Part shown: positions 17,388 through 50,144 of the stretch, piece after piece | Layout: each line of letters begins with the position of its first letter | Position numbering within the stretch: position 1 is the stretch's first letter | NCBI RefSeq assembly: GCF_013391085.1 | Contig: NZ_CP058334.1 | Coordinates: forward strand, 2,108,001 to 2,172,000 | Source of the DNA: Natronomonas halophila | GTDB taxonomy: Archaea; Halobacteriota; Halobacteria; Halobacteriales; Haloarculaceae | Direction: 5' to 3' | Length of the DNA stretch: 64,000 nucleotides | Made by a program: the position numbers and the translations under genes | Notes under the pieces: generated by a model | Seen by the model: only the letters and a program-made list of their open reading frames with translations | Database searches by the model: none | What the model was told of the DNA's origin: nothing

Positions 17388-17417
17388 TTTATAAACGATA
17401 ACGTGGCCAGCCCCGGT
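17388..17417 (+). promoter_or_regulatory. Promoter of the pilus-like operon, shared 30-base block (copy C)
   Basis: TTTATA at 17388-17393 followed by 24 bases to the ATG at 17418. The segment ACGTGGCCA at 17401-17409 matches ACGCGGCCA at the same distance from the TATA box and start codon in the promoters at 21646 and 49665. It drives the first gene of the operon. Confidence 0.6.
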
Positions 17418-17762
17418 ATGTCGCCGCCCGACGCCGACCGCGAGTCGCTCGAACGTCGTCTCGATGCCGTCGAACGGGCGCTTTCTGCGGACGAACCAGT
17501 CGACCGAACCGACGAACTCGCCGAACTCGAAGGCCGGATTGCGGAACTGGAAGCCGCCGTCGAGGCGCTTCGGGGCTACGTCGGGTCGGTGCGCTCGGTC
17601 AACGAGGACGTCGAACGGCGGGCCGACCGCGCGCTCCGGAAGGCCGAGGCACTGGAGCGAACGGTCGCGGCGGGCCAGCGGGAGCGGGAGGAGCCGACGC
17701 AAGCCGCCGGACCGACCGATGATGGGGCCCAAATCCCTCTCCTCGAACGCCTGCGGCCGTGA
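17418..17762 (+). CDS. Coiled-coil protein, first gene of pilus-like operon (DUF7310-like)
   Basis: 114 residues, almost entirely heptad-like: ESLERRLDAVERALS, ELAELEGRIAELEAAVEAL, ERRADRALRKAEALERTV. No signal or membrane segment, so probably cytoplasmic, perhaps a regulator or adaptor of the ATPase. I associate it with the haloarchaeal family DUF7310, from memory. It overlaps the next gene by four bases (GTGA). Start fixed by the TATA box 30 bases upstream. Confidence 0.7.
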   Translation: MSPPDADRESLERRLDAVERALSADEPVDRTDELAELEGRIAELEAAVEALRGYVGSVRSVNEDVERRADRALRKAEALERTVAAGQREREEPTQAAGPTDDGAQIPLLERLRP

Positions 17763-18217
17763 TTCGCGTCGTATTGGCGGTCGTGCTCGGAACGGCTCTC
17801 GTGGGCGCCAGCCTGCCGGCCGCCGAGCGGGCCGAACGGGACCGCAACGCCGCGCTCGCGACGGACGAACTGAACGTGCTCGCGACCGACGCCGAGCGAC
17901 TCGCGGCCCGAAACGACCCGGTCGACGCGAACGCTTCGCCGGCCACGACCACCGTCACACTCCGCCCACCGGAGCCGTCGTTCACGGACGGCGGGCGGTT
18001 TCACGTCGCCGACGGGCGATTAGTCTGGGTCCCCGCGCGCGGCCCGAACGTCTCCGTCCGAAGCGAGGTGCCGATTCGGGTCGACGGCTCCCTCCGCATC
18101 GAGAGTCGGACCGAACTCCGGTTGTCGCTGTCCCGAACCGACGGCCAGGCGGTCGTCCGCGTTCGGCGAGCGGGGATTCAAAAGGAAAGCCGCGACCAAC
18201 CGCCCTATGCTGGATAG
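17759..18217 (+). CDS. Membrane-anchored protein of pilus-like operon (DUF7311-like)
   Basis: 152 residues from a GTG start overlapping the preceding stop. One hydrophobic N-terminal helix (VVLAVVLGTALVGASLPAA) looks like a signal anchor or pilin-like helix. The rest (DELNVLATDAERLAARNDPV; ATTTVTLRPPEPSFTDGGRF) is likely extracytoplasmic beta-rich sequence. It overlaps the ATPase gene by eleven bases. No characterised homologue recognised; possibly a minor pilin or assembly factor. Confidence 0.68.
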   Translation: MIRVVLAVVLGTALVGASLPAAERAERDRNAALATDELNVLATDAERLAARNDPVDANASPATTTVTLRPPEPSFTDGGRFHVADGRLVWVPARGPNVSVRSEVPIRVDGSLRIESRTELRLSLSRTDGQAVVRVRRAGIQKESRDQPPYAG

Positions 18218-19982
18218 ACTGCTCGATACCGCGGCCGACTGCGGCTGTGTGCCGTCCGTCGAGGCCGACCGGCTCCACGTCGACAGCGACGACTGCGCGG
18301 GAGAGGGCCGGCTCGCCGAGGAACCGGCCTGTCGCGGGACCGTCGTCGAAGCGCTGGAGGACCGAGACGTGACGGCCGTCCGCACCCGCGCGTCGGGCTT
18401 CGAGCGCGCCTACGAGGACGACGCCGCGGCCCTGCTCGTTGCGGCGGGTCGCTTCGCCGAGGCCGCCGCCTTTCACGATGCGGACCTCGCGGCCCGCGCC
18501 CGGAGGGACCCGCTGGGTGCGGCCCGCGTCGCCTCGGGTCGGGGCGACCCGCTGGCGCGTATCGCCGCCGAAACCGGCCTCGCGACGTTTCTCGGCGCCG
18601 ACTACGAGACGGCGCTCCGGCCGAGCGTCGGGCCGACGGTCGCCCGCTCCCGGGTGGCGACCCGACCGCCCGCGGACGCGACGCTGACCGAGCGCTACGA
18701 ACTCGATACCGGTGCCGTCGTCCGGCACTATACCGGCGACGACCTCTCCACGTACCACCTTACGCCTGCGGAACACCGGCTGGACGCCGACGCGACGGCG
18801 ACGCTGGCGGCAGCCTACGACCGTCTCGCCGAAGGGGGCGTCACCGGTGGCCAGCGGGCGCCGGGACGGGCCGTTCGCGCCGTCGCCGATACCGGCCAGC
18901 CAGTCGAAACGCTCGCGACAGCGCTCGAAAAGCACACGCGCGGCCTCGGCGCGCTGGAGGACTGTTTCGCCGACCCCGAGGTGACCGACGCCTTCGTCAC
19001 CGCACCGGTCGAGAACAACCGCATTCGGGTCCGCCGGGACGGCGAGACGATGCGAACCAACGTCCGGTTGACAACCGACGGCGCCGCGGCGCTTGCCTCC
19101 CGGTTCCGGCGGGCCAGCGGCCGCGCGTTCTCGAAGGCCAGCCCCACGCTGGCTGCGACCGTCGACGCGGGCGGCCGCCGAGTGCGGGTCGCGGGCGTCA
19201 CCGACCCCGTCAGCGACGGCGTCGGCTTCACGTTCCGCGCCCACGACGAGTCGGCGTTCCGGCTGGCCGACCTCGTCGAAAACGGGACGCTCGACCCCGA
19301 GGGGGCGGCCCTGCTATCGGTCGCCGTCGAGCGCGGCGCGGCCGTCCTGCTTGCGGGCGCCCGCGGCGCTGGCAAGACGACGCTGCTCGGCGCGCTGCTG
19401 TGGGAACTGCCGCCGTCGGTCAGGACCGTCGTCATCGAGGACACGCCCGAACTTCCCGTCGAGGAACTCCAGTCGACGGGCCGGGACGTCCAGCCGCTTC
19501 GTGTAGCGACCGGCGACGGGGCCTCCATCGAACCGACCGACGCCCTTCGGACGGCCCTCCGACTCGGCGACGGCGCACTCGTCGTCGGGGAGGTGCGCGG
19601 CGAGGAGGCACAGGTGCTCTACGAGGCGATGCGGGTCGGCGCCGCCGACGGCGCGGTCCTCGGGACGATTCACGGCGGTGGCGGCGAATCGGTCCGCGAG
19701 CGGGTCGTCACCGACCTCGGTGTGCCGGAAACCGCCTTCGCGGACACGGATTTCGTCGTCACGGTCGAAGCCTACGACGACGGCGACGGCCGGACGCGCC
19801 GGCTCCGAGCCGTCGAGGCCGTTCGTCGTACCGCCAACGGCGTCGGCTTCGAGACGGTAGCGGACGACGAAGGCCTTTGCCTCGCTGACAGTCCCGCCAT
19901 TGCCGACCTCGCGGCGCCGAACGAGACGGCCGCCGATGTCCGGGCGGACATCGAGAGCCGAGCGAACCACCTCGGCGAATGA
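18207..19982 (+). CDS. VirB11/TadA/FlaI-type secretion ATPase
   Basis: 591 residues. A type II/IV secretion superfamily ATPase that would power pilin-like subunit assembly from the cytoplasmic face. The Walker A motif GARGAGKTT is at residues 384-392, the Asp-box region VVIEDTPELPVEE follows, Walker B LVVGEVRGEE is at about 458-464, and the His-box is VLGTIHGGG. The N-terminal 170 residues are family-specific and contain several cysteines near the start (CGCVPSVEAD, DDCAGEG, PACRG). Overlaps both neighbours (eleven and four bases). Only one ATPase is encoded, so retraction by a second one is not indicated. Confidence 0.92.
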   Translation: MLDRLLDTAADCGCVPSVEADRLHVDSDDCAGEGRLAEEPACRGTVVEALEDRDVTAVRTRASGFERAYEDDAAALLVAAGRFAEAAAFHDADLAARARRDPLGAARVASGRGDPLARIAAETGLATFLGADYETALRPSVGPTVARSRVATRPPADATLTERYELDTGAVVRHYTGDDLSTYHLTPAEHRLDADATATLAAAYDRLAEGGVTGGQRAPGRAVRAVADTGQPVETLATALEKHTRGLGALEDCFADPEVTDAFVTAPVENNRIRVRRDGETMRTNVRLTTDGAAALASRFRRASGRAFSKASPTLAATVDAGGRRVRVAGVTDPVSDGVGFTFRAHDESAFRLADLVENGTLDPEGAALLSVAVERGAAVLLAGARGAGKTTLLGALLWELPPSVRTVVIEDTPELPVEELQSTGRDVQPLRVATGDGASIEPTDALRTALRLGDGALVVGEVRGEEAQVLYEAMRVGAADGAVLGTIHGGGGESVRERVVTDLGVPETAFADTDFVVTVEAYDDGDGRTRRLRAVEAVRRTANGVGFETVADDEGLCLADSPAIADLAAPNETAADVRADIESRANHLGE

Positions 19983-21652
19983 CGGCAATCGAACGCCTCG
20001 CGCGGCTCTCACCGCGGGAGACGGCCCCCGACTCGTTGGCCGAAGTCGCACCGTTCCTCGACGAGGAACCGTCGATACTGGCCGCCGGCGCGGACGTCGT
20101 CGGCGCCATCGCGACGGTTCCAGTTGTCCTCATCGCGCTCGTGCTTGGACGGGCGGAACTCTTGCTGGTCGCTTTCGGCGTCGGCCTCGGTGCCGCCGTC
20201 GCCGTCCGTGGCGTACTCCTCGCCGTCGCCAACCTCCGCGAAAGCCGGGCGCTCGGTGCGGCGCCGACCCTCGTCGGGCGGGCGGTCCTCCGGTTGCGCA
20301 TCGCCCCGACGGCGGAGGGGGCGGCCGCATTTGCGGCGAGGACCGATGGCCTGCTCGGCGACCGTCTGGCCGAACACGTCAGACGGGCGCGGGGGACGCC
20401 CCGTTCCGGACTCGGCGCCTTCGCCGACGGCTGGCGTGACACCTTCCCGGCGCTCTATCGGGCCGTGACGCTGCTGGAGGCGGCCGCGAACGCCCCCGAC
20501 GACGAGCGCGACCGGGCACTCGACCGCGCGATGGAGACGGTCCTTGATGGGGCCGAGACTCGTGCTGCTGAAGCAGCCGATTCGCTTCAGGGACCGACGA
20601 CGGCGGTCTACGCGTTCGGCGTGCTCCTGCCGCTGGCGCTCGTGGCCGTCCTGCCGGCGGCCGGCGCGGCCGGCGTCGAGGCCGCCCTTCCCGCGGTCGT
20701 CGTGGTCTACGACGTGGTGTTGCCCGCCGGGCTCTGCTGTGCGGCCGGCTGGCTGCTGGCGGCCCGCCCGGTCGCCTTCCCGCCGGTCCCCGTCGGCCGC
20801 GACCATCCCGACGTCCCGGACCGTCGGTGGCCGCCGGTCGTCGTGGGTTTGGCTGTCGCCGTCGGTAGTTGGCTCGTCGTCGGCACTCTCCTCCCGGCGT
20901 GGACTCGACCGCTGGCGGCCGTCGGATTCGGAGGCGGGGCGGCCCTCATCTGCTGGTTTCGCCCCATCGTTTCGGTTCGACGGCGTGCGAGTCGGTTCGA
21001 CGCCGGCCTCCCGGACGCGCTATATCTCGTCGGCCGGCGCGTGGCCGACGGCGTGGCCGTCGAGCGCGCCGTTGCCGACGCCGCAGATGACCTCGATGGC
21101 GTCGTCGGCGAGACGTTCACCGCAGCCGAGCGGCGGGGCCGCCAACTCCGGGTCGGCGTCGAGACGGCTTTCGATGGCGCCCTCGACGGCGTGCCGAGCA
21201 AACGGGGCGAAAGCGCCGCGCGCTTGCTCGGTTTGGCGGCCCGCGAGGGCCCGCCGGCCGGCCGCGCGCTCGTCGAAACCGCCGACCACCTCGATGCGCT
21301 CGCCCGCGTGGAGGCGGAGGCCCGCCGCGACCTCGGCCGGGTCACCGCGACGCTCGGCAACACCGCGGCTTTCTTCGGCCCGCTCGTCGGTGGCGCGACG
21401 GTCGCCCTTGCCGATAGCATCGACGCCAGCACTGTCATCGATGGCAGCTCCCCGGATGCCGCCGCGCTCGGCCCCGCTATCGGCGCGTATGTCCTCCTGA
21501 CGGCAGTGGTTCTGACGGCACTGGCGACGGGCCTTTCGCGGGGACTCGACCGGGCGACGGTGGGCTACCGAATCGGTATCGCCCTCCCTCTGGCGACGTC
21601 GACGTATCTCGCCGGCTTCGCCGCCGCCTCGGTCGCGGCCGGGGGTTTATAA
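19979..21652 (+). CDS. TadC/FlaJ-like membrane platform protein (T2SSF-type)
   Basis: 557 residues. Two copies of a T2SSF-like cytoplasmic helical bundle, one at about 95-190 and one at about 340-460 (FDAGLPDALYLVGRRVADGV, AARLLGLAAREGPPAGRALV), alternate with clusters of membrane helices near 35-75, 200-265, 280-320 and 475-555. This is the two-module layout of archaeal pilus and archaellum platform proteins. It pairs with the ATPase encoded just upstream (ATGA overlap). Its stop codon lies inside the TATA box of the next promoter. Confidence 0.88.
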   Translation: MTAIERLARLSPRETAPDSLAEVAPFLDEEPSILAAGADVVGAIATVPVVLIALVLGRAELLLVAFGVGLGAAVAVRGVLLAVANLRESRALGAAPTLVGRAVLRLRIAPTAEGAAAFAARTDGLLGDRLAEHVRRARGTPRSGLGAFADGWRDTFPALYRAVTLLEAAANAPDDERDRALDRAMETVLDGAETRAAEAADSLQGPTTAVYAFGVLLPLALVAVLPAAGAAGVEAALPAVVVVYDVVLPAGLCCAAGWLLAARPVAFPPVPVGRDHPDVPDRRWPPVVVGLAVAVGSWLVVGTLLPAWTRPLAAVGFGGGAALICWFRPIVSVRRRASRFDAGLPDALYLVGRRVADGVAVERAVADAADDLDGVVGETFTAAERRGRQLRVGVETAFDGALDGVPSKRGESAARLLGLAAREGPPAGRALVETADHLDALARVEAEARRDLGRVTATLGNTAAFFGPLVGGATVALADSIDASTVIDGSSPDAAALGPAIGAYVLLTAVVLTALATGLSRGLDRATVGYRIGIALPLATSTYLAGFAAASVAAGGL

Positions 21653-21675
21653 CTGAACACGCGGCCAGCGGCCCC
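21646..21675 (+). promoter_or_regulatory. Internal promoter of pilus-like operon, shared 30-base block (copy A)
   Basis: TTTATA at 21646-21651 overlaps the stop codon of the platform gene; 24 bases follow to the ATG at 21676. The core GAACACGCGGCCA (21654-21666) is identical to that at 49673-49685. It probably allows the pilin-like genes to be expressed above the level of the ATPase and platform genes. Confidence 0.62.
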
Positions 21676-22143
21676 ATGTTCGACGTTCCCGTCGACGCCT
21701 GGTACGTCTATCTCGGTCTCGCCGTCGCCAGCGGGGCGACCGTCACGCTCGCGGGTGCGATGCCCGCCGCAGCGCCGCCGGACGCGACTGGTGCCGCTCG
21801 AACCGTCGATAGCGTCGCCGCCAGCCAGCACGCATCCGTCGGCAGCCACCCGCTCGCTGACGCCGACGCCGTTCGGGTGGGCGCCGATACCCTCTCGCTT
21901 CGCGGGCCGGGTGGGACGACCCATGCCGGCCTCGGCTACGGGCCGGTCGTCCTCGCTCCCGAAGGGACGCCGCTCGGGGGCGTCCTCCGCGGGGAACCGC
22001 CCGAGCAGGTCTTCACATCGCCGGCGCGGTTCGAGCGGGCGGTCGCCGACCGGCGGGCGACGGACCCGACGTGGTACCGCACCGACCGACTGCTCGTCAG
22101 GCGGGTCACGTGGGAGGGAACCGATGTCGTCCTCGTCGGCTAG
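21676..22143 (+). CDS. Secreted/membrane-anchored protein of pilus-like operon (DUF7283-like)
   Basis: 155 residues. One N-terminal hydrophobic helix (WYVYLGLAVASGATVTLAGA, residues 9-28) anchors a probable extracytoplasmic domain (DAVRVGADTLSLRGPGG, YGPVVLAPEGTPLGGVL). I associate it with DUF7283, from memory. It has its own promoter, then overlaps the next gene by twenty bases. Candidate minor pilin or membrane component; no enzyme motif. Confidence 0.68.
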   Translation: MFDVPVDAWYVYLGLAVASGATVTLAGAMPAAAPPDATGAARTVDSVAASQHASVGSHPLADADAVRVGADTLSLRGPGGTTHAGLGYGPVVLAPEGTPLGGVLRGEPPEQVFTSPARFERAVADRRATDPTWYRTDRLLVRRVTWEGTDVVLVG

Positions 22144-22522
22144 GGCACAGGTCGAACCGCTGGCCGCGCTGGCTGCGGTTTTCGCCGTCGGTGTCGGCCT
22201 GACGCTCTACGTCGGCGCGCTCGACGGGGCGCTTGCGGCGCTCGACGACGACCGCGAGATGGCGCCGACGGCGGCCGACGCGCTCGTCGCCGAAGCATCC
22301 TCCTTCGGCGCCGTCGACCCGCCGTTATCGGCGGCCGCGAAGCGTGCTCGCCCGACGGGCTATCGGCTGAACGCGACGCTCGCGGCCGGCGGAAAGCGGT
22401 GGCAGGCAGGTTCGCCCCGTTCACGCCGCGTCGATTGCGTCGAGCGACGGGTGAGCGCTCGCACCGCACCGGGGACGGTCCACCCCGGGCGTCTGGAGGT
22501 GTGCGTGTGGCCCGCGGCGTGA
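22124..22522 (+). CDS. Pilin-like protein of pilus-like operon (DUF7285-like)
   Basis: 132 residues. The N-terminus (ARAQVEPLAALAAVFAVGVG) resembles an archaeal class III (type IV pilin) signal: basic residue plus small residue, then Q at the likely +1 position, then a hydrophobic helix to about residue 31. The remainder has two cysteines (VDCVERRVS; LEVCVWPAA) that could form a disulfide. It overlaps both neighbours. If the signal is cleaved by a PibD-like peptidase, that enzyme is encoded elsewhere. Confidence 0.68.
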   Translation: MSSSSARAQVEPLAALAAVFAVGVGLTLYVGALDGALAALDDDREMAPTAADALVAEASSFGAVDPPLSAAAKRARPTGYRLNATLAAGGKRWQAGSPRSRRVDCVERRVSARTAPGTVHPGRLEVCVWPAA

Positions 22523-23310
22523 GCACCGTCCTCGACGTAGCGGTCTGTCTCCTGCTGGTCGGCGCGGCGATGACGACGCTGACTGTCGGGATTCCGAACG
22601 GAGGACGCCACACGGTCGGCGACTCGACGACTCCCGACGCGGACGTGCCCGCCCGAACGCTCGCGACTGTGACGGCTGACGTCTCCGCCCCTCGAAATCG
22701 AACGGTTCACGGCACGCTAGCGGACCATCTCGGACGAGCCGCTGTGGCGAATACCTCGCTCGATGGCGACTCGCTGTCGGACGGGGAGTATGCCGGCGCG
22801 GTCGCGACGGAAACGGCCGAAACGACCGGACGACGGGTCGCAGTCACGGCACGCTGGGAACCGTATCCCGGGGCACCGCTTCGGGGAACGGTGACGGCAG
22901 GACGAATGCCGCCGACGGACGCCGACGTCGCAGTCACGAGACACGTCGTCGCCACCGGTATCGACGCTTCCATGGCGGACCCGGATTCCTTCGGCACGCT
23001 GGCACGAGCGCTCGCGACGGCGTATGTCGAGTGGCGTTTTCCGCCGGAGCGAACGCGTGCCGCGCTGGTCGACGAGCGGACCGCACCGGCAACCGCCGAT
23101 CGCTATCGGACGGCGGCAGCGCCGCTCGGCGCGGATATCGAGGGCGCACTCGCTGAGGCGGACACCCGACGAACAAACGAGTTGCTCGCGAACGCGCTGG
23201 CCAACCGTCTCGAAGCCGACCTCCGAGAGCGGTACGATACGCCCGCGGCCGCCGCCGAGGCGAGCGCTCCCGACCGAACGGTACTCGTCGTCCGGCGGTG
23301 GGACAGATGA
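22501..23310 (+). CDS. Pilin-like protein of pilus-like operon (DUF7284-like)
   Basis: 269 residues from a GTG at 22501 (GTG at 22507 is also possible; the upstream ATG at 22399 lies deep in the previous gene). The N-terminus RVARGVSTVLDVAVCLLLVG is a short basic leader with a single hydrophobic helix, again pilin-like. The rest is an extracytoplasmic domain with conserved-looking blocks (GGRHTVGDSTT; GRRVAVTARWEPYPGAPLRG). ATGA overlap with the next gene. Confidence 0.65.
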   Translation: MRVARGVSTVLDVAVCLLLVGAAMTTLTVGIPNGGRHTVGDSTTPDADVPARTLATVTADVSAPRNRTVHGTLADHLGRAAVANTSLDGDSLSDGEYAGAVATETAETTGRRVAVTARWEPYPGAPLRGTVTAGRMPPTDADVAVTRHVVATGIDASMADPDSFGTLARALATAYVEWRFPPERTRAALVDERTAPATADRYRTAAAPLGADIEGALAEADTRRTNELLANALANRLEADLRERYDTPAAAAEASAPDRTVLVVRRWDR

Positions 23311-26198
23311 ACGACCGTGCGCGCGTCCCGTTCGCGCTCGTCGGCGTGCTCCTGTTGGTCTCCAGTACGACGCTGACCGCGACCATCGGCACGGAGGCGC
23401 CCGCCGACCGGCCGTCGGTCGACCGGGCGATGGATGGCGCGACCGCCGAATCAGTGACCGCGCTCCGGGCGGCGGCCGACGAGGCAGCGACCGAGGCGGC
23501 GGCCGCTCCGGTGACGCGCCCGGCGAACACGACGGCCGGCCGAGCGCTGAACGACACTCAGCCGTTCCGGGACGCGCTCCGATTACGGCTGTATCTGGCC
23601 GCCCGCGAGCGCCTCACTCCGGTCGCCGTCGAACGCGGTGGTGTCACCGCGACGGCGTCGCTGCCGGCCGTCGAGTCGACGACTCGCGGCTACCGCGAGG
23701 CCATCGACCACGTCACGGTCGAACGGGCCGGCGAGGACAGGGCGGCCCTTCGGGTGACCATCGAGAACGTCACACTGACCGCGACTCGCGGTGAGCGGCA
23801 GGTCGCCGAAACCGAACGGTCGCCGACCTTCGTCGTTGCCAATCCCGCGCTGTTGCTCCACGACCGAACGGAACGCTTCGAACGCCGGGCGACCGCGCCA
23901 GTGACCGAAACGGGTATCTCGCGTCGCCTGACAGCGCGGCTCTATCCGATTGCATGGACCCGCGGGTATGCCCAGCACGGTGGCGCGCCGATAGCCAACG
24001 TCGTCGGCACGCGACACGTCGAACTGGCGACTAACGACGCGCTCGTCGCCGAACAGCAGGCCGTCTTCGGCGCCACCGACCCCGACGGCCACCGGGGCGT
24101 CGCCGCTGCGGGTCGGCGTGTCGCGACCACGGACGCCCTGCTCGGTGCCGGTGGTGACGAGAAATGGGTCGACGCGGTCCTCGGTGGTGCCAACGAGGTC
24201 GGCCAGTCCGACTCCGGCAGCCAACCGGTCGGCGCCTGGCGCTCCGAACCGCCGGCCGCCGAGGTGTCAGTGGGCGTCAACCGCTCGGCGGACCACGCCT
24301 ACGCCGAGGTGGTCGGCATCCGCGGCGAGGACCAGATCGCTCGGCACATCGACCGGGCACACACCGTCGAGGCCCGCGTCGACGCCTCGGTCGAGAACCG
24401 GGGCAGCTACTCGACCGGCGAGCGCTCGCCCGGCGGCGACTGGACGCTCGTCGACGTGCGGCGCGAAACGAGCGTCTCGCTCGATGACGCCGAAGCGGCG
24501 GCAGACGACGAATCGGACTGGACGACACGACGAGCGAGGGCTTTCGAGGCGGTGGAGACGGCAACCACGACGCGGACGTGGCGGCAAGGAAACCGGACGA
24601 CAACAACGGTACGGACGAGCAAGCGTCGCTATCGGGTTTCCGTCACCCTTCGCGCTCGAACGGCACCCATCGACGGGGTTCCGAGCGGCCGCCTCGACGG
24701 CGCACTGGCCCCTGCGACCGACCGGGCGACCGACGAGGCGCTTCGCGAGGCGGGCGGCTTCCGGACGGCCGCCCGAAGCGTCGTCTCCGGCGGATGGTCC
24801 CCGACGACGGCGACGGCGACCGCCGACCGGACCGTCTCACGGGCTGACGTTCTGCACACCGTTCGACCGCTACGCGAAACGACGCGCAACCACACCGTTC
24901 GACTGCCCGCGCCGGCGGTCGGTGCCGGCCGAGCGAACCCGCCGGCCCGACTGCGCGAGAGCCTCGCGGACCGCCGTGAGGAACTGCTCGGCCCGCCCGA
25001 CCGGTCGGCCGAGCCGCGGGCGAAACGCGCCGGCCGGGCCGCGTATCTCGACGCGCTGGGCGCGGAACTCGACGGCCGGGCGGATACCCACGCCGAGACC
25101 AACACCGGTATTGAGGCAGCACTCGGCGAGCACCTCCCTGCCGACCGGCTCGACGGCGCGCTCGCGGCCCATCGGGCGGCCCGTCGTCCCGACCCGCCGC
25201 GAACCGCCGACCCGGCGGGGAACCTCTCGTTTGCGGTCGAAACCGGGCCGTCCTATCTCACGACGGGGTCGGTGGCCCGCGACCGAATCGGCGCTCGCGG
25301 CGAGGGTCGTATCACGCCGCTTGCGACCCGGAACGTGAACGTCTTCACCTCGCCGCACGACGGGGTCGCACAGTCGATCGTCGACCGGATTCCCTATCTC
25401 GGGGCGGACCGGATCGCCCTTTCGACGGCCGCCTCGACGCTCCTCGCGGCCGAGCGGTCGGATACTGACGCCCCGGACCTCGAGCGGGAAGTCGGATCGG
25501 CCAACGCCCACGTCCGTGGTGCGCTCGTCGCGGTCATGGTCGACGAGGGAATTTCCGAGCGGGACGCGAGGGCGGCGCTTGAAACCGATGCGGGGACCGC
25601 CGAGGCCGCCTTGGCGCTGGCGAACGGCACGACCGCCGACCGCGCGGCCGCGACCGTCGCCGACAGTGAGGCCGAACGGGACCGGCTTCGGGTCCGTCTG
25701 CGAAGGAGGCTCGATGCGACGCTCGCCGAGAAGGGCGCCCGCCCGCCACGAAGCGCCACGACGCCGATTCCCGAGGCGCTTCGCGCGGAATACAGCAGGG
25801 AACTCCGACGGGTGGCTGCCGATGGCATCGAGGCCGAAATCGCGGACAAACGGAAGCGGCTTCTCGGCAAGCGCCTCGGCGCGCTTCCGGCCGGCCTGCC
25901 GATTGCGCCGGTTCCGGGCTACTGGTATGCGACGGCCAACGTCTGGTACGTCGAGGCGGCCGGCGAGTACGAACGGTTCGTGGTCCGGGCCGACCGCGGT
26001 GGCCCGTCCGGCGCGGTGACCTACATCCGCGACGGGCGGGCGGCCCGAATCGATTCGCGAGACGCCCGCCTCGGCACTGCCGAGCGCGTTCCAGTCCGGC
26101 TCTCGACGGCCGTCGTGGTCGTCGTTCCGCCGGGTCCCCGCGGCGTCGGTGACACCGACGGCGTCGCCGACGAACGGTCTCAGGGGTGGCCGCCGTGA
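23307..26198 (+). CDS. Large secreted/anchored protein of pilus-like operon (DUF7286-like)
   Basis: 963 residues, by far the largest product of the operon. One N-terminal membrane helix (FALVGVLLLVSSTTLTATIG) and no other. The rest is alanine- and arginine-rich with conserved-looking blocks: NPALLLHDRTERFERRAT, an internal RNVNVFTSPHDGVAQSIVDR, PVPGYWYATANVWYVEAAGE and a proline/glycine end (VVVVVPPGPRGVGD). No enzyme motif seen. It could be a surface subunit, tip protein or secreted substrate. Start is the ATG overlapping the previous stop, not the GTG at 23298. Confidence 0.7.
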   Translation: MNDRARVPFALVGVLLLVSSTTLTATIGTEAPADRPSVDRAMDGATAESVTALRAAADEAATEAAAAPVTRPANTTAGRALNDTQPFRDALRLRLYLAARERLTPVAVERGGVTATASLPAVESTTRGYREAIDHVTVERAGEDRAALRVTIENVTLTATRGERQVAETERSPTFVVANPALLLHDRTERFERRATAPVTETGISRRLTARLYPIAWTRGYAQHGGAPIANVVGTRHVELATNDALVAEQQAVFGATDPDGHRGVAAAGRRVATTDALLGAGGDEKWVDAVLGGANEVGQSDSGSQPVGAWRSEPPAAEVSVGVNRSADHAYAEVVGIRGEDQIARHIDRAHTVEARVDASVENRGSYSTGERSPGGDWTLVDVRRETSVSLDDAEAAADDESDWTTRRARAFEAVETATTTRTWRQGNRTTTTVRTSKRRYRVSVTLRARTAPIDGVPSGRLDGALAPATDRATDEALREAGGFRTAARSVVSGGWSPTTATATADRTVSRADVLHTVRPLRETTRNHTVRLPAPAVGAGRANPPARLRESLADRREELLGPPDRSAEPRAKRAGRAAYLDALGAELDGRADTHAETNTGIEAALGEHLPADRLDGALAAHRAARRPDPPRTADPAGNLSFAVETGPSYLTTGSVARDRIGARGEGRITPLATRNVNVFTSPHDGVAQSIVDRIPYLGADRIALSTAASTLLAAERSDTDAPDLEREVGSANAHVRGALVAVMVDEGISERDARAALETDAGTAEAALALANGTTADRAAATVADSEAERDRLRVRLRRRLDATLAEKGARPPRSATTPIPEALRAEYSRELRRVAADGIEAEIADKRKRLLGKRLGALPAGLPIAPVPGYWYATANVWYVEAAGEYERFVVRADRGGPSGAVTYIRDGRAARIDSRDARLGTAERVPVRLSTAVVVVVPPGPRGVGDTDGVADERSQGWPP

Positions 26199-26238: not shown

Positions 26239-27750
26239 ATGGACGCCGCTACTGCCCTCAAGTCGGCCGCTGCGGTCCTCCAGCGGCCGTCGAACATCCT
26301 CCCCGCGTACTTCCTGACGCCGGCCGTCTCGGCGGTCACACGAACGGTCTCGCTTTTCGGTATCGCCGTCGTCTACCTGTATCTCGAAACGACCGGACGG
26401 CTCGCGCGGTTCCGCGAAGAACTCGCCGCGCGCGATATCGAGTCGCCGCCCTCGGCGGAGACCAACCCCGATGCCTTCGACACATGGGTCCGGGAAATTA
26501 CGCCACTGGTCGAGACGGTCGTCACGCCCACGACCGTCGCCATCGTCGCGGCGACGATACTGGCCACGATAGTCGTCTCCGTCATCCTCGTCGCCGTCGC
26601 ATCGGCTGCCCAACTGTCCGCCAGCCACGCGCGATTGTGTTCGGAACGCGGGACGACGGCCGCGCTTCGGGGCGGCCGCCGCTTCTGGGGACCGATACTC
26701 GTGCTCCGCCTGCTGGAACTCGCCCTCTGGGCGGGGATACTCGCCGCCGTCGGAATCGTTATCGCCGTCGTGTCGCTGCTCTCGCCGATAGTGGCCGCGC
26801 TGGTGGCTCTCGCAGCCTTCCCGGTGACCGTCGGACTGCTCGTCGGCATCCGTCTCGTGTTCATCTTCGCGCCGGTCGCCGTCATCGTCGACGAGGGAAC
26901 CGTCGGCCCGAGCCTCAGACGGTCGGTTGGGTTTCTTACCGATAACCCGGTCGCTGCGGGCGCGTACGTCCTCATCGCGCTGGGCGGCTTTCTGACGGTC
27001 GGGTCCCTCGGCGGGGCCTTCGCCACACAGGGCAGCGGCGTCCTCTTCGGCCTGCTCGGCTTTACCCTGCTGTCGCCGGGACTGGACCTCGTGAAAACCG
27101 CCTTCTACGGGGATTACAGGGGGGAAGTCGACCCGCCAGGGGCTCCCGAGGGGCCACTCGGAGGCCGGTTCCGAGCCGGCCTCTCCCGCGGTATCGGCGA
27201 GCTATTCGCCTTCGTCCGGGGCCACCCTCTGCTGCATGTCGCCTCGCTTGCGGTCGGCGTCGCCGGGTTCGCGCTCGGGTGGGTCGCCATCGAGCCGTTC
27301 CTCGGGGGCGTCTCGACGTCCATTGCCGACCGACTGGCCGGCCACAACCCGCTCGTGGCGGCCGTCGAGTTCGGCGCGAACAACTGGACGGTCGCGGTGA
27401 GTTCGGCTTTCGCCGGCCTCGTGTTGGCGGTGCCGGCCGCGGGCGCGCTACTGTTCAACGGCTTCGTGTTCGGCGTCATCGCCCGCACCGAGGAGACGCT
27501 ACTCGAACTGTTGGCCTTCGTCGTGCCGCACGGAATCCTCGAAATCCCGGCCTTCATCGTCGCGGGCGCGCTCGGCTTCTGGCTGGGCGGTGCCGGCTGG
27601 CGGACCCTCCGGGGGCAGGCCTCCGCCGAGGCGCTGGCCGATGCCATCGACCGCGCCTTCTGGGTCGCCATCGGTCTGGGGGTCCTGCTCGCTATCGCCG
27701 CCGTCATCGAGGGGTTCGTCAGCCCCTACTACTATCGACCGTTCCTGTAG
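26239..27750 (+). CDS. Multi-pass membrane protein with SpoIIM-like C-terminal region
   Basis: 503 residues. The N-terminal half has about six hydrophobic segments in a DUF4013-like arrangement. The C-terminal half (about 300-503) carries features of the stage II sporulation protein M family (AVEFGANNWTVAVSSAFAGL, LLFNGFVFGVIAR, VPHGILEIPAFIVAGALGF). Archaea do not sporulate; the function of these proteins is unknown. Forty bases separate it from the pilus-like operon, so read-through is possible, but it has its own short leader. Start at 26239; the frame extends upstream without support. Confidence 0.75.
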   Translation: MDAATALKSAAAVLQRPSNILPAYFLTPAVSAVTRTVSLFGIAVVYLYLETTGRLARFREELAARDIESPPSAETNPDAFDTWVREITPLVETVVTPTTVAIVAATILATIVVSVILVAVASAAQLSASHARLCSERGTTAALRGGRRFWGPILVLRLLELALWAGILAAVGIVIAVVSLLSPIVAALVALAAFPVTVGLLVGIRLVFIFAPVAVIVDEGTVGPSLRRSVGFLTDNPVAAGAYVLIALGGFLTVGSLGGAFATQGSGVLFGLLGFTLLSPGLDLVKTAFYGDYRGEVDPPGAPEGPLGGRFRAGLSRGIGELFAFVRGHPLLHVASLAVGVAGFALGWVAIEPFLGGVSTSIADRLAGHNPLVAAVEFGANNWTVAVSSAFAGLVLAVPAAGALLFNGFVFGVIARTEETLLELLAFVVPHGILEIPAFIVAGALGFWLGGAGWRTLRGQASAEALADAIDRAFWVAIGLGVLLAIAAVIEGFVSPYYYRPFL

Positions 27751-49664: not shown

Positions 49665-49694
49665 TTTATATACGAACACGCGGCCACCGACCCC
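49665..49694 (+). promoter_or_regulatory. Promoter of pilin-like gene, shared 30-base block (copy B); bidirectional TATA
   Basis: TTTATA at 49665-49670 with 24 bases to the ATG at 49695. The core GAACACGCGGCCA (49673-49685) is identical to that at 21654-21666 at the same distance from the start. Read on the other strand the same AT-rich block (TATATAAATGG) may serve crcB, 70 bases away. Confidence 0.6.
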
Positions 49695-50144
49695 ATGCGT
49701 CACAGCGAAGGCTTCCGCGCGGACGAACGCGCAATCGAGGGGTTGCCCGTCCGACTCGTCATCGCGATGGTCGTCGGCGTCGCCAGCCTCTCGGTCATGA
49801 TGAGCATGCTCTCCGGAATCTCCGGCCTCGCGGTCACCGAACTCGACACGCAGCCGACGCCCGAGGTAGTCGCCCCCGGCAACGAGACGGTCGAGGTGCG
49901 GGTCGTCGACCCCGACGGCAATGGGGTGAGCGACGCCACCGTCGTCGCCCGTGGTGGGTCAGCGCGGCTGAATGGCGTCGAAACGGCGAAAACGGGGGAG
50001 AACGGCACTGCGGAACTCCAGTTGGCGCCTGACCTCGGCCCGAACCAGCGGGACGGCACTGTCGAATTCGACGTCAAGCCACCGGCTGGCAGTGAGTACG
50101 CCGACAAGCGGGAGAACACGGCGCTGCTGGTGGTGGAGGATTAG
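49695..50144 (+). CDS. Pilin-like secreted protein with beta-rich domain (DUF7382-like)
   Basis: 149 residues. A short N-terminal charged leader (RADERAIEGLP) precedes one hydrophobic helix (VRLVIAMVVGVASLSVMMSM, about 19-38), like haloarchaeal type IV pilins. The remainder has a carboxypeptidase-regulatory/Ig-like pattern (VEVRVVDPDGNGVSDATVVA; NGTAELQLAPDLGPNQ). It shares its promoter block with the pilus-like operon at 17-26 kb, so it may be a surface subunit of the same machine. I recall the family as DUF7382. Confidence 0.72.
   Translation: MRHSEGFRADERAIEGLPVRLVIAMVVGVASLSVMMSMLSGISGLAVTELDTQPTPEVVAPGNETVEVRVVDPDGNGVSDATVVARGGSARLNGVETAKTGENGTAELQLAPDLGPNQRDGTVEFDVKPPAGSEYADKRENTALLVVED

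Follow-up and report, generated by a model that had tools for sequence, protein, structure and literature searches.

The DNA analysed here is a 64,000-nt stretch of the Natronomonas halophila genome (3.21 Mb, single contig), hereafter the window, to which all unprefixed positions refer. On its + strand, from 17418 to 26198, lies a cluster of eight genes that is probably the Natronomonas-type copy of archaeal type IV pilus subclade 4F (pil-2 or pilB2-C2), working by the general pilus-assembly mechanism. The first-pass annotation of this DNA had described eight compact genes, nearly all overlapping, and the coordinates of the open reading frames (ORFs) bear this out: all eight are collinear, and every junction overlaps except that between genes 4 and 5. 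Searched against Pfam, genes 1 to 8 matched, above cut-off, DUF7310, DUF7311, T2SSE, no family, DUF7283, DUF7285, DUF7284 and DUF7286, respectively.

17418..17762, + strand: gene 1, cytoplasmic coiled-coil protein of 114 amino acids (aa) without a membrane segment; DUF7310 (7.3e-20)
17759..18217, + strand: gene 2, 152 aa, one N-terminal helix (residues 4-22); DUF7311 (2.1e-29)
18207..19982, + strand: gene 3, secretion/pilus ATPase of the PilB2/TadA type, 591 aa; T2SSE (4.1e-19)
19979..21652, + strand: gene 4, TadC/PilC-like membrane platform, 557 aa; T2SSF in 12 of 20 orthologues
21676..22143, + strand: gene 5, small anchored protein of 155 aa with no leader motif; DUF7283 (7.6e-47)
22124..22522, + strand: gene 6, pilin-like, 132 aa, leader ...RA/QVEPLAALAAVFAV; DUF7285 (8.9e-30)
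22501..23310, + strand: gene 7, anchored, 269 aa, leader ...RG/VSTVLDVAVCLLLV in this lineage; DUF7284 (1.6e-65)
23307..26198, + strand: gene 8, large secreted protein of 963 aa, pilin-like N-terminus DRA/RVPFALVGVLLLVSS; DUF7286 (1.7e-289)

Genes 3 and 4 have the features of a pilus motor. The gene 3 profile matches the structures of CpaF and FlaI, and its N-terminal four-cysteine domain (Cys12, 14, 30 and 42) is invariant in 21 orthologues, as is the P-loop GxRxAGKTT. The nucleotide-binding motifs are kept, and the ATPase is TadA-like, as first annotated. A comparable cysteine cluster is present in methanogen relatives of gene 3 and absent from its non-orthologous best matches. Gene 4 has four strongly hydrophobic segments; by itself it matched no Pfam family, and its profile found nothing among the PDB sequences. 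The two-module TadC-like platform proposed at first pass is supported through its orthologues, whose best T2SSF match reaches 2.8e-7. The genome encodes eight ATPases of the gene 3 superfamily, of which the eighth match (G000:C1:1789954-1793325, L137) appears to be a fusion of a PIN-domain protein with a P-loop part and not a pilus ATPase.

The remaining four products are membrane-anchored, and they differ in how often their orthologues carry a prepilin-like leader: 1/79 for gene 5, 68/74 for gene 6, 40/65 for gene 7 and 69/77 for gene 8, compared with 1-3% for shuffled N-termini. Two pilin-like leaders had been noted before, of which that of gene 6 holds and that of gene 7 is only partly conserved. 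The 963-residue protein had been called anchored, correctly, while its own leader was overlooked; it retains a hydrophobic leader in haloarchaea and methanogens alike. A prepilin peptidase homologue is encoded in the genome. AlphaFold modelled gene 7 with a pLDDT of 91 and gene 8 with a pLDDT of 83, the latter as an N-terminal helix followed by a long secreted multi-domain part.

Used as the query against named genomes, the large protein (gene 8) returned 80 loci. The eight-gene order was found again in about 70 named haloarchaeal loci and is therefore far above chance. Conserved synteny, which the first-pass annotation had suggested checking, thus extends over Natronomonas, Haloarcula, Haloferax, Halorubrum, Haloquadratum, Halobacterium and others, and DUF7286 occurs in 225 of 292 near-complete genomes of the class Halobacteria. 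The usual 3' neighbours in the named loci are DUF5791, an epimerase-family gene and a DHH-family gene; in the window a SpoIIM-domain membrane protein (26239-27750) stands close behind gene 8, an arrangement shared among the compared loci by only a few Natronomonas-type ones. In some genomes (L036, L038, L040) we also observed a second, paralogous version of the cluster, whose DUF7286 protein is in some cases longer, reaching up to 1400 aa.

The overlaps are conserved too: relatives overlap at junction 5-6 in 66/71, at 6-7 in 53/62 and at 7-8 in 55/60 cases, and at 4-5 in 0/67. Four loci carry genes 5-8 without genes 1-4 nearby; three of the genomes concerned could be searched, and all three have the motor block at another place. 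Because synteny breaks between genes 1-4 and 5-8, at the sole non-overlapping junction, the cluster consists of two genetic modules, a motor module (1-4) and a membrane/extracellular module (5-8).

Both modules are preceded by a shared promoter-like element of 22 bases, found before genes 1, 3 and 5, with a TATA-like box 30 nt before the start codon. Upstream of gene 5, 79 genomes show the TATA-like box at about 30 nt and GGRCCA at about 15 nt before the start codon. When both strands of the window were scanned with a matrix built from the other genomes, four matches stood out, the fifth scoring only 8.6.

17388..17409, + strand: element before gene 1, exact match to TTTATAAMYGAWMACGYGGCCA; matrix score 32.4, the top of the window
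18177..18198, + strand: element before gene 3; matrix score 24.8, fourth in the window
21646..21667, + strand: element before gene 5, exact match to TTTATAAMYGAWMACGYGGCCA; matrix score 29.8
49665..49686, + strand: element before the ORF at 49695-50144, one mismatch; matrix score 29.4

In a leave-one-out scan of 61 named loci (1.38 Mb), the element preceded gene 1 in 40, gene 3 in 41 and gene 5 in 57, with eight matches elsewhere. Judged by their sequence, two of these eight fall at wrongly assigned starts, one of gene 3 and one of gene 1, and a third belongs to a small RNA from the family described below. The regions around the genome's other six pilus-type ATPases contained no copy, with no score above 15. 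We dropped the idea that the element is exclusive to this pilus, as about eleven small RNA genes of the same genome also have it upstream. Each of these roughly 85-nt RNA genes begins 30 nt past the element (+ strand, L189:1531-1618, L191:1531-1616, L231:1531-1614 and L239:1531-1614; - strand, L194:1408-1492, L200:1409-1492, L230:1408-1492 and L240:1411-1492; further members exist), and one more was seen in another Natronomonas (L046:20006-20090). Two covarying helices define an H-type pseudoknot, with 85% of cells paired and 32 two-sided changes, against at most 44% and 7 changes in slid control alignments; the family had no match in Rfam.

The two modules are also inherited together. Among 24 haloarchaeal genomes, an ATPase orthologous to gene 3 was present in 9/9 with DUF7286 and in 0/15 without it (one weak match of 112 bits). 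Outside the haloarchaea, 10/10 genomes with DUF7286 carry one such ATPase (360-416 bits), whereas seven genomes without it reach at most 146 bits. Pooled over the 41 genomes, the association is 19/19 versus 0/22 (p = 4e-12 if the genomes are taken as independent, which they are not fully), and it includes methanogens in which the two genes lie apart on the chromosome. The distant ATPases have a cysteine-rich N-terminus and, in most cases, a gene 4-like platform gene after them. Since parts of the machine occur together in Methanosarcinales-type genomes as well, it extends beyond the haloarchaea and is older than they are; the assembly machine of ATPase, platform and pilin-like proteins proposed at first pass stands, its restriction to haloarchaea does not. 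These data also bear on the idea that the ATPase and platform have nothing to do with the genes downstream of them and are their neighbours by chance. The separation of the two blocks in some lineages would fit it, but the co-occurrence, the conserved overlaps and the shared element contradict it, and we regard it as practically untenable; a motor without any link to the downstream genes was what the first-pass annotation had named as fatal to its own proposal. In methanogen-type genomes (L138:12088-15925, L141:84-4384, L145) the C-terminal part of DUF7286 is detached as tandem ORFs of 230-310 aa, which alternate with secreted-looking proteins of about 200 aa.

The element at 49665-49686 precedes a pilin-like gene 23 kb from the cluster.

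49695..50144, + strand: candidate in-trans filament subunit of 149 aa with one helix and an Ig-like domain; DUF7382 (2.1e-27), weak Big_1

DUF7382 homologues adjoin related clusters in five loci (L027, L036, L038, L039 and L040) and, in two genomes, lie right next to a gene 1 homologue; the family was found above cut-off in 19/20 genomes with DUF7286 versus 2/15 without. From sequence and context, the DUF7382 protein is likely a filament subunit, and since this pilin-like gene has the same promoter element, the cluster is probably not self-contained.

This gene also bears on whether the system might be a pseudopilus-powered secretion machine, in which a short filament pushes out gene 8 or other exoproteins in the manner of a type II secretion piston. 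Such a machine would account for the lack of a typical abundant pilin in the cluster and for its largest product being the secreted one, and the ATPase/platform superfamily is common to secretion systems. However, the leader of gene 8 is kept in haloarchaea and methanogens, which is what one expects if the protein is built into a filament and not if it is set free. Nor does this cell have an outer membrane that would have to be crossed, and a separate Ig-like, pilin-like gene is under the same control; we consider secretion unlikely.

The regulon of relatives also comprises a HerA/TrwB-like ATPase, which raises the possibility of DNA exchange through the pilus, for which the Ups pili and the Ced system of Sulfolobales offer a comparison. 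A DUF87/TrwB-like ATPase of about 340 aa is divergent from the DUF7382 gene (L209:1914-2921, L028:8802-9872, L202:253-1299 on the - strand and L222:1885-2985) and usually has this promoter element as well. In two methanogen-type genomes such a gene is found roughly 2 kb away from the cognate ATPase, and in G081 one is close to the related cluster. Strong matches occur in 17/24 genomes with DUF7286 versus 1/15 without. In contrast, the window's genome and its genus-mates give only weak HerA matches, so this part is missing here and was dropped from the system of this genus; HerA-like proteins also have other roles. A DNA-transport pilus thus seems rather improbable to us. We give similarly little credence to a broader scheme, in which the cluster would be the core of a dispersed, element-marked regulon comprising motor, pseudopilins, giant tip protein, in-trans Ig-domain pilin and, in most haloarchaea, the HerA/TrwB-like ATPase, forming a pilus of Euryarchaeota that conducts DNA or cargo, with the promoter type shared by a family of pseudoknotted RNAs.

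For the type IV pilus that we favour, we infer the following course of assembly. The prepilin peptidase would cut the leaders of genes 6 and 8; in this lineage gene 7 would be processed as well. Docked beneath the gene 4 platform, the gene 3 ATPase would hydrolyse ATP to extract subunits from the membrane. The product of gene 6, the DUF7382 protein encoded elsewhere, or both would then build a filament or short pseudopilus. At its end, gene 8 might serve as the cap, either a large tip or a minor pilin of adhesin type, together with genes 5 and 7, and genes 1 and 2 may regulate the motor. The machine is likely used for contact with surfaces or cells. Of the specific roles, a thin surface filament or pseudopilus for adhesion seems the best candidate, and we advance it tentatively.

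Several points weigh against this reading. No filament of this system has been seen, none of the cluster's genes has a convincing pilin fold, and many lineages lack the gene 7 leader. The leader of the DUF7382 protein is non-canonical, so that "pilin" is here something we infer. Structure prediction of the large protein, as first proposed, gave a good model and no convincing PDB relative: Foldseek found nothing in the PDB at E < 0.001 for genes 7 and 8, the best VIA Z values of the fold search (5.8 for SecB, residues 357-496, and 6.1 for a ribosomal protein) are in the range of common arrangements, and the gene 8 profile found nothing among PDB sequences. In Halobacterium salinarum, a further deletion, of pilB1 and not of pilB2, already abolished the thin pili, and pilC2 of strain R1 has an in-frame stop, so pil-2 may be inactive there (PMC4292770). 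The match to the Hbt. salinarum R1 and Haloferax volcanii genes rests on gene order and on the published descriptions. We favour the pilus class because of the homology of the ATPase, platform and peptidase, the hallmarks of 4F set out below, the co-occurrence of DUF7286 with the ATPase, the break in synteny between the two modules, the shared element, and the co-transcription and adherent-cell expression recorded for pil-2 in Hbt. salinarum.

The locus is thus an already catalogued type IV pilus class of uncharacterised function whose parts are now better defined: two modules, an ancient co-inheritance of ATPase and large protein, a promoter element common to several of the genes, and a candidate subunit encoded in trans. 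An undescribed locus, as we had considered, was rejected, as it matches the published pil-2, 4F and pilB2/C2-cetZ2. The "unknown product" of the first-pass annotation accordingly holds for function, none being described in the literature searched, and fails for the locus and its class. The machine is present in most sampled haloarchaeal genomes and in methanogen relatives. No paper was found in the literature search for DUF7286 or DUF7382 by name. What is new is the conserved promoter element and the separate pilus-subunit-like gene, apparently part of a known machine; together they name specific genes to target by deletion and proteomics, and show which of them must be removed jointly for a phenotype to be seen.

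Comparison with known systems places the cluster among several relatives. Like the bacterial Tad/Flp pilus it has a TadA/CpaF-like ATPase and a TadC-like platform; the Flp, TadE/F and secretin families were not matched by Pfam among the eight proteins. It shares a homologous ATPase and platform with the archaellum, from which it had rightly been set apart: gene 3 scores 103 bits against NF058587 (the FlaI model; cut-off 550), and the cluster contains no archaellin or FlaH-like gene.

Makarova et al. (2016) described 4F by a cysteine-rich N-terminus of the ATPase, a TadC protein and a separate major pilin (arCOG02981/arCOG10216); for the halobacterial system they added a coiled-coil protein (arCOG07564) that the others lack and a neighbouring FtsZ-like gene (PMC4858521). 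Here, too, the ATPase has an N-terminal cysteine-rich domain and adjoins its cognate TadC-like platform, and a coiled-coil gene, DUF7310, heads the cluster, equated by description and not by arCOG number. For the stand-alone major pilin of the PilA family, DUF7382 is a candidate, by context and not by arCOG. CetZ, which is FtsZ-like, lies near 42 of the 80 named loci, mostly divergent from gene 1, and is not in the window. That beside the Haloferax gibbonsii cluster is CetZ2 (677 bits to 4b45, versus 319 to CetZ1, 4b46). For the pilB2/C2 regulon next to cetZ2, which has an arCOG03095 epimerase and arCOG04674 nearby, the role is stated to be unknown, and no CetZ2 is reported in N. pharaonis (PMC9856176). 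Relatives of the cluster have cetZ2 just upstream, and their clusters are followed by an epimerase-family gene and a small DUF5791 gene (compared as families and not by arCOG), whereas the window has TruD where cetZ2 stands.

In Hbt. salinarum, pil-2 (OE1347R-OE1332R) comprises seven co-transcribed genes with three predicted prepilins, and pilB2 was 8.5-fold up in adherent cells, yet at a low level (PMC4292770). By gene order the present cluster resembles this locus, whose single transcript covers pilB2, pilC2, three prepilin-like genes and a further gene. Regions of pilB2 were also reported from Natronomonas pharaonis and Hfx. volcanii, and pil-2 was held to be restricted to haloarchaea (PMC4292770), whereas the related parts found here co-occur in methanogens.

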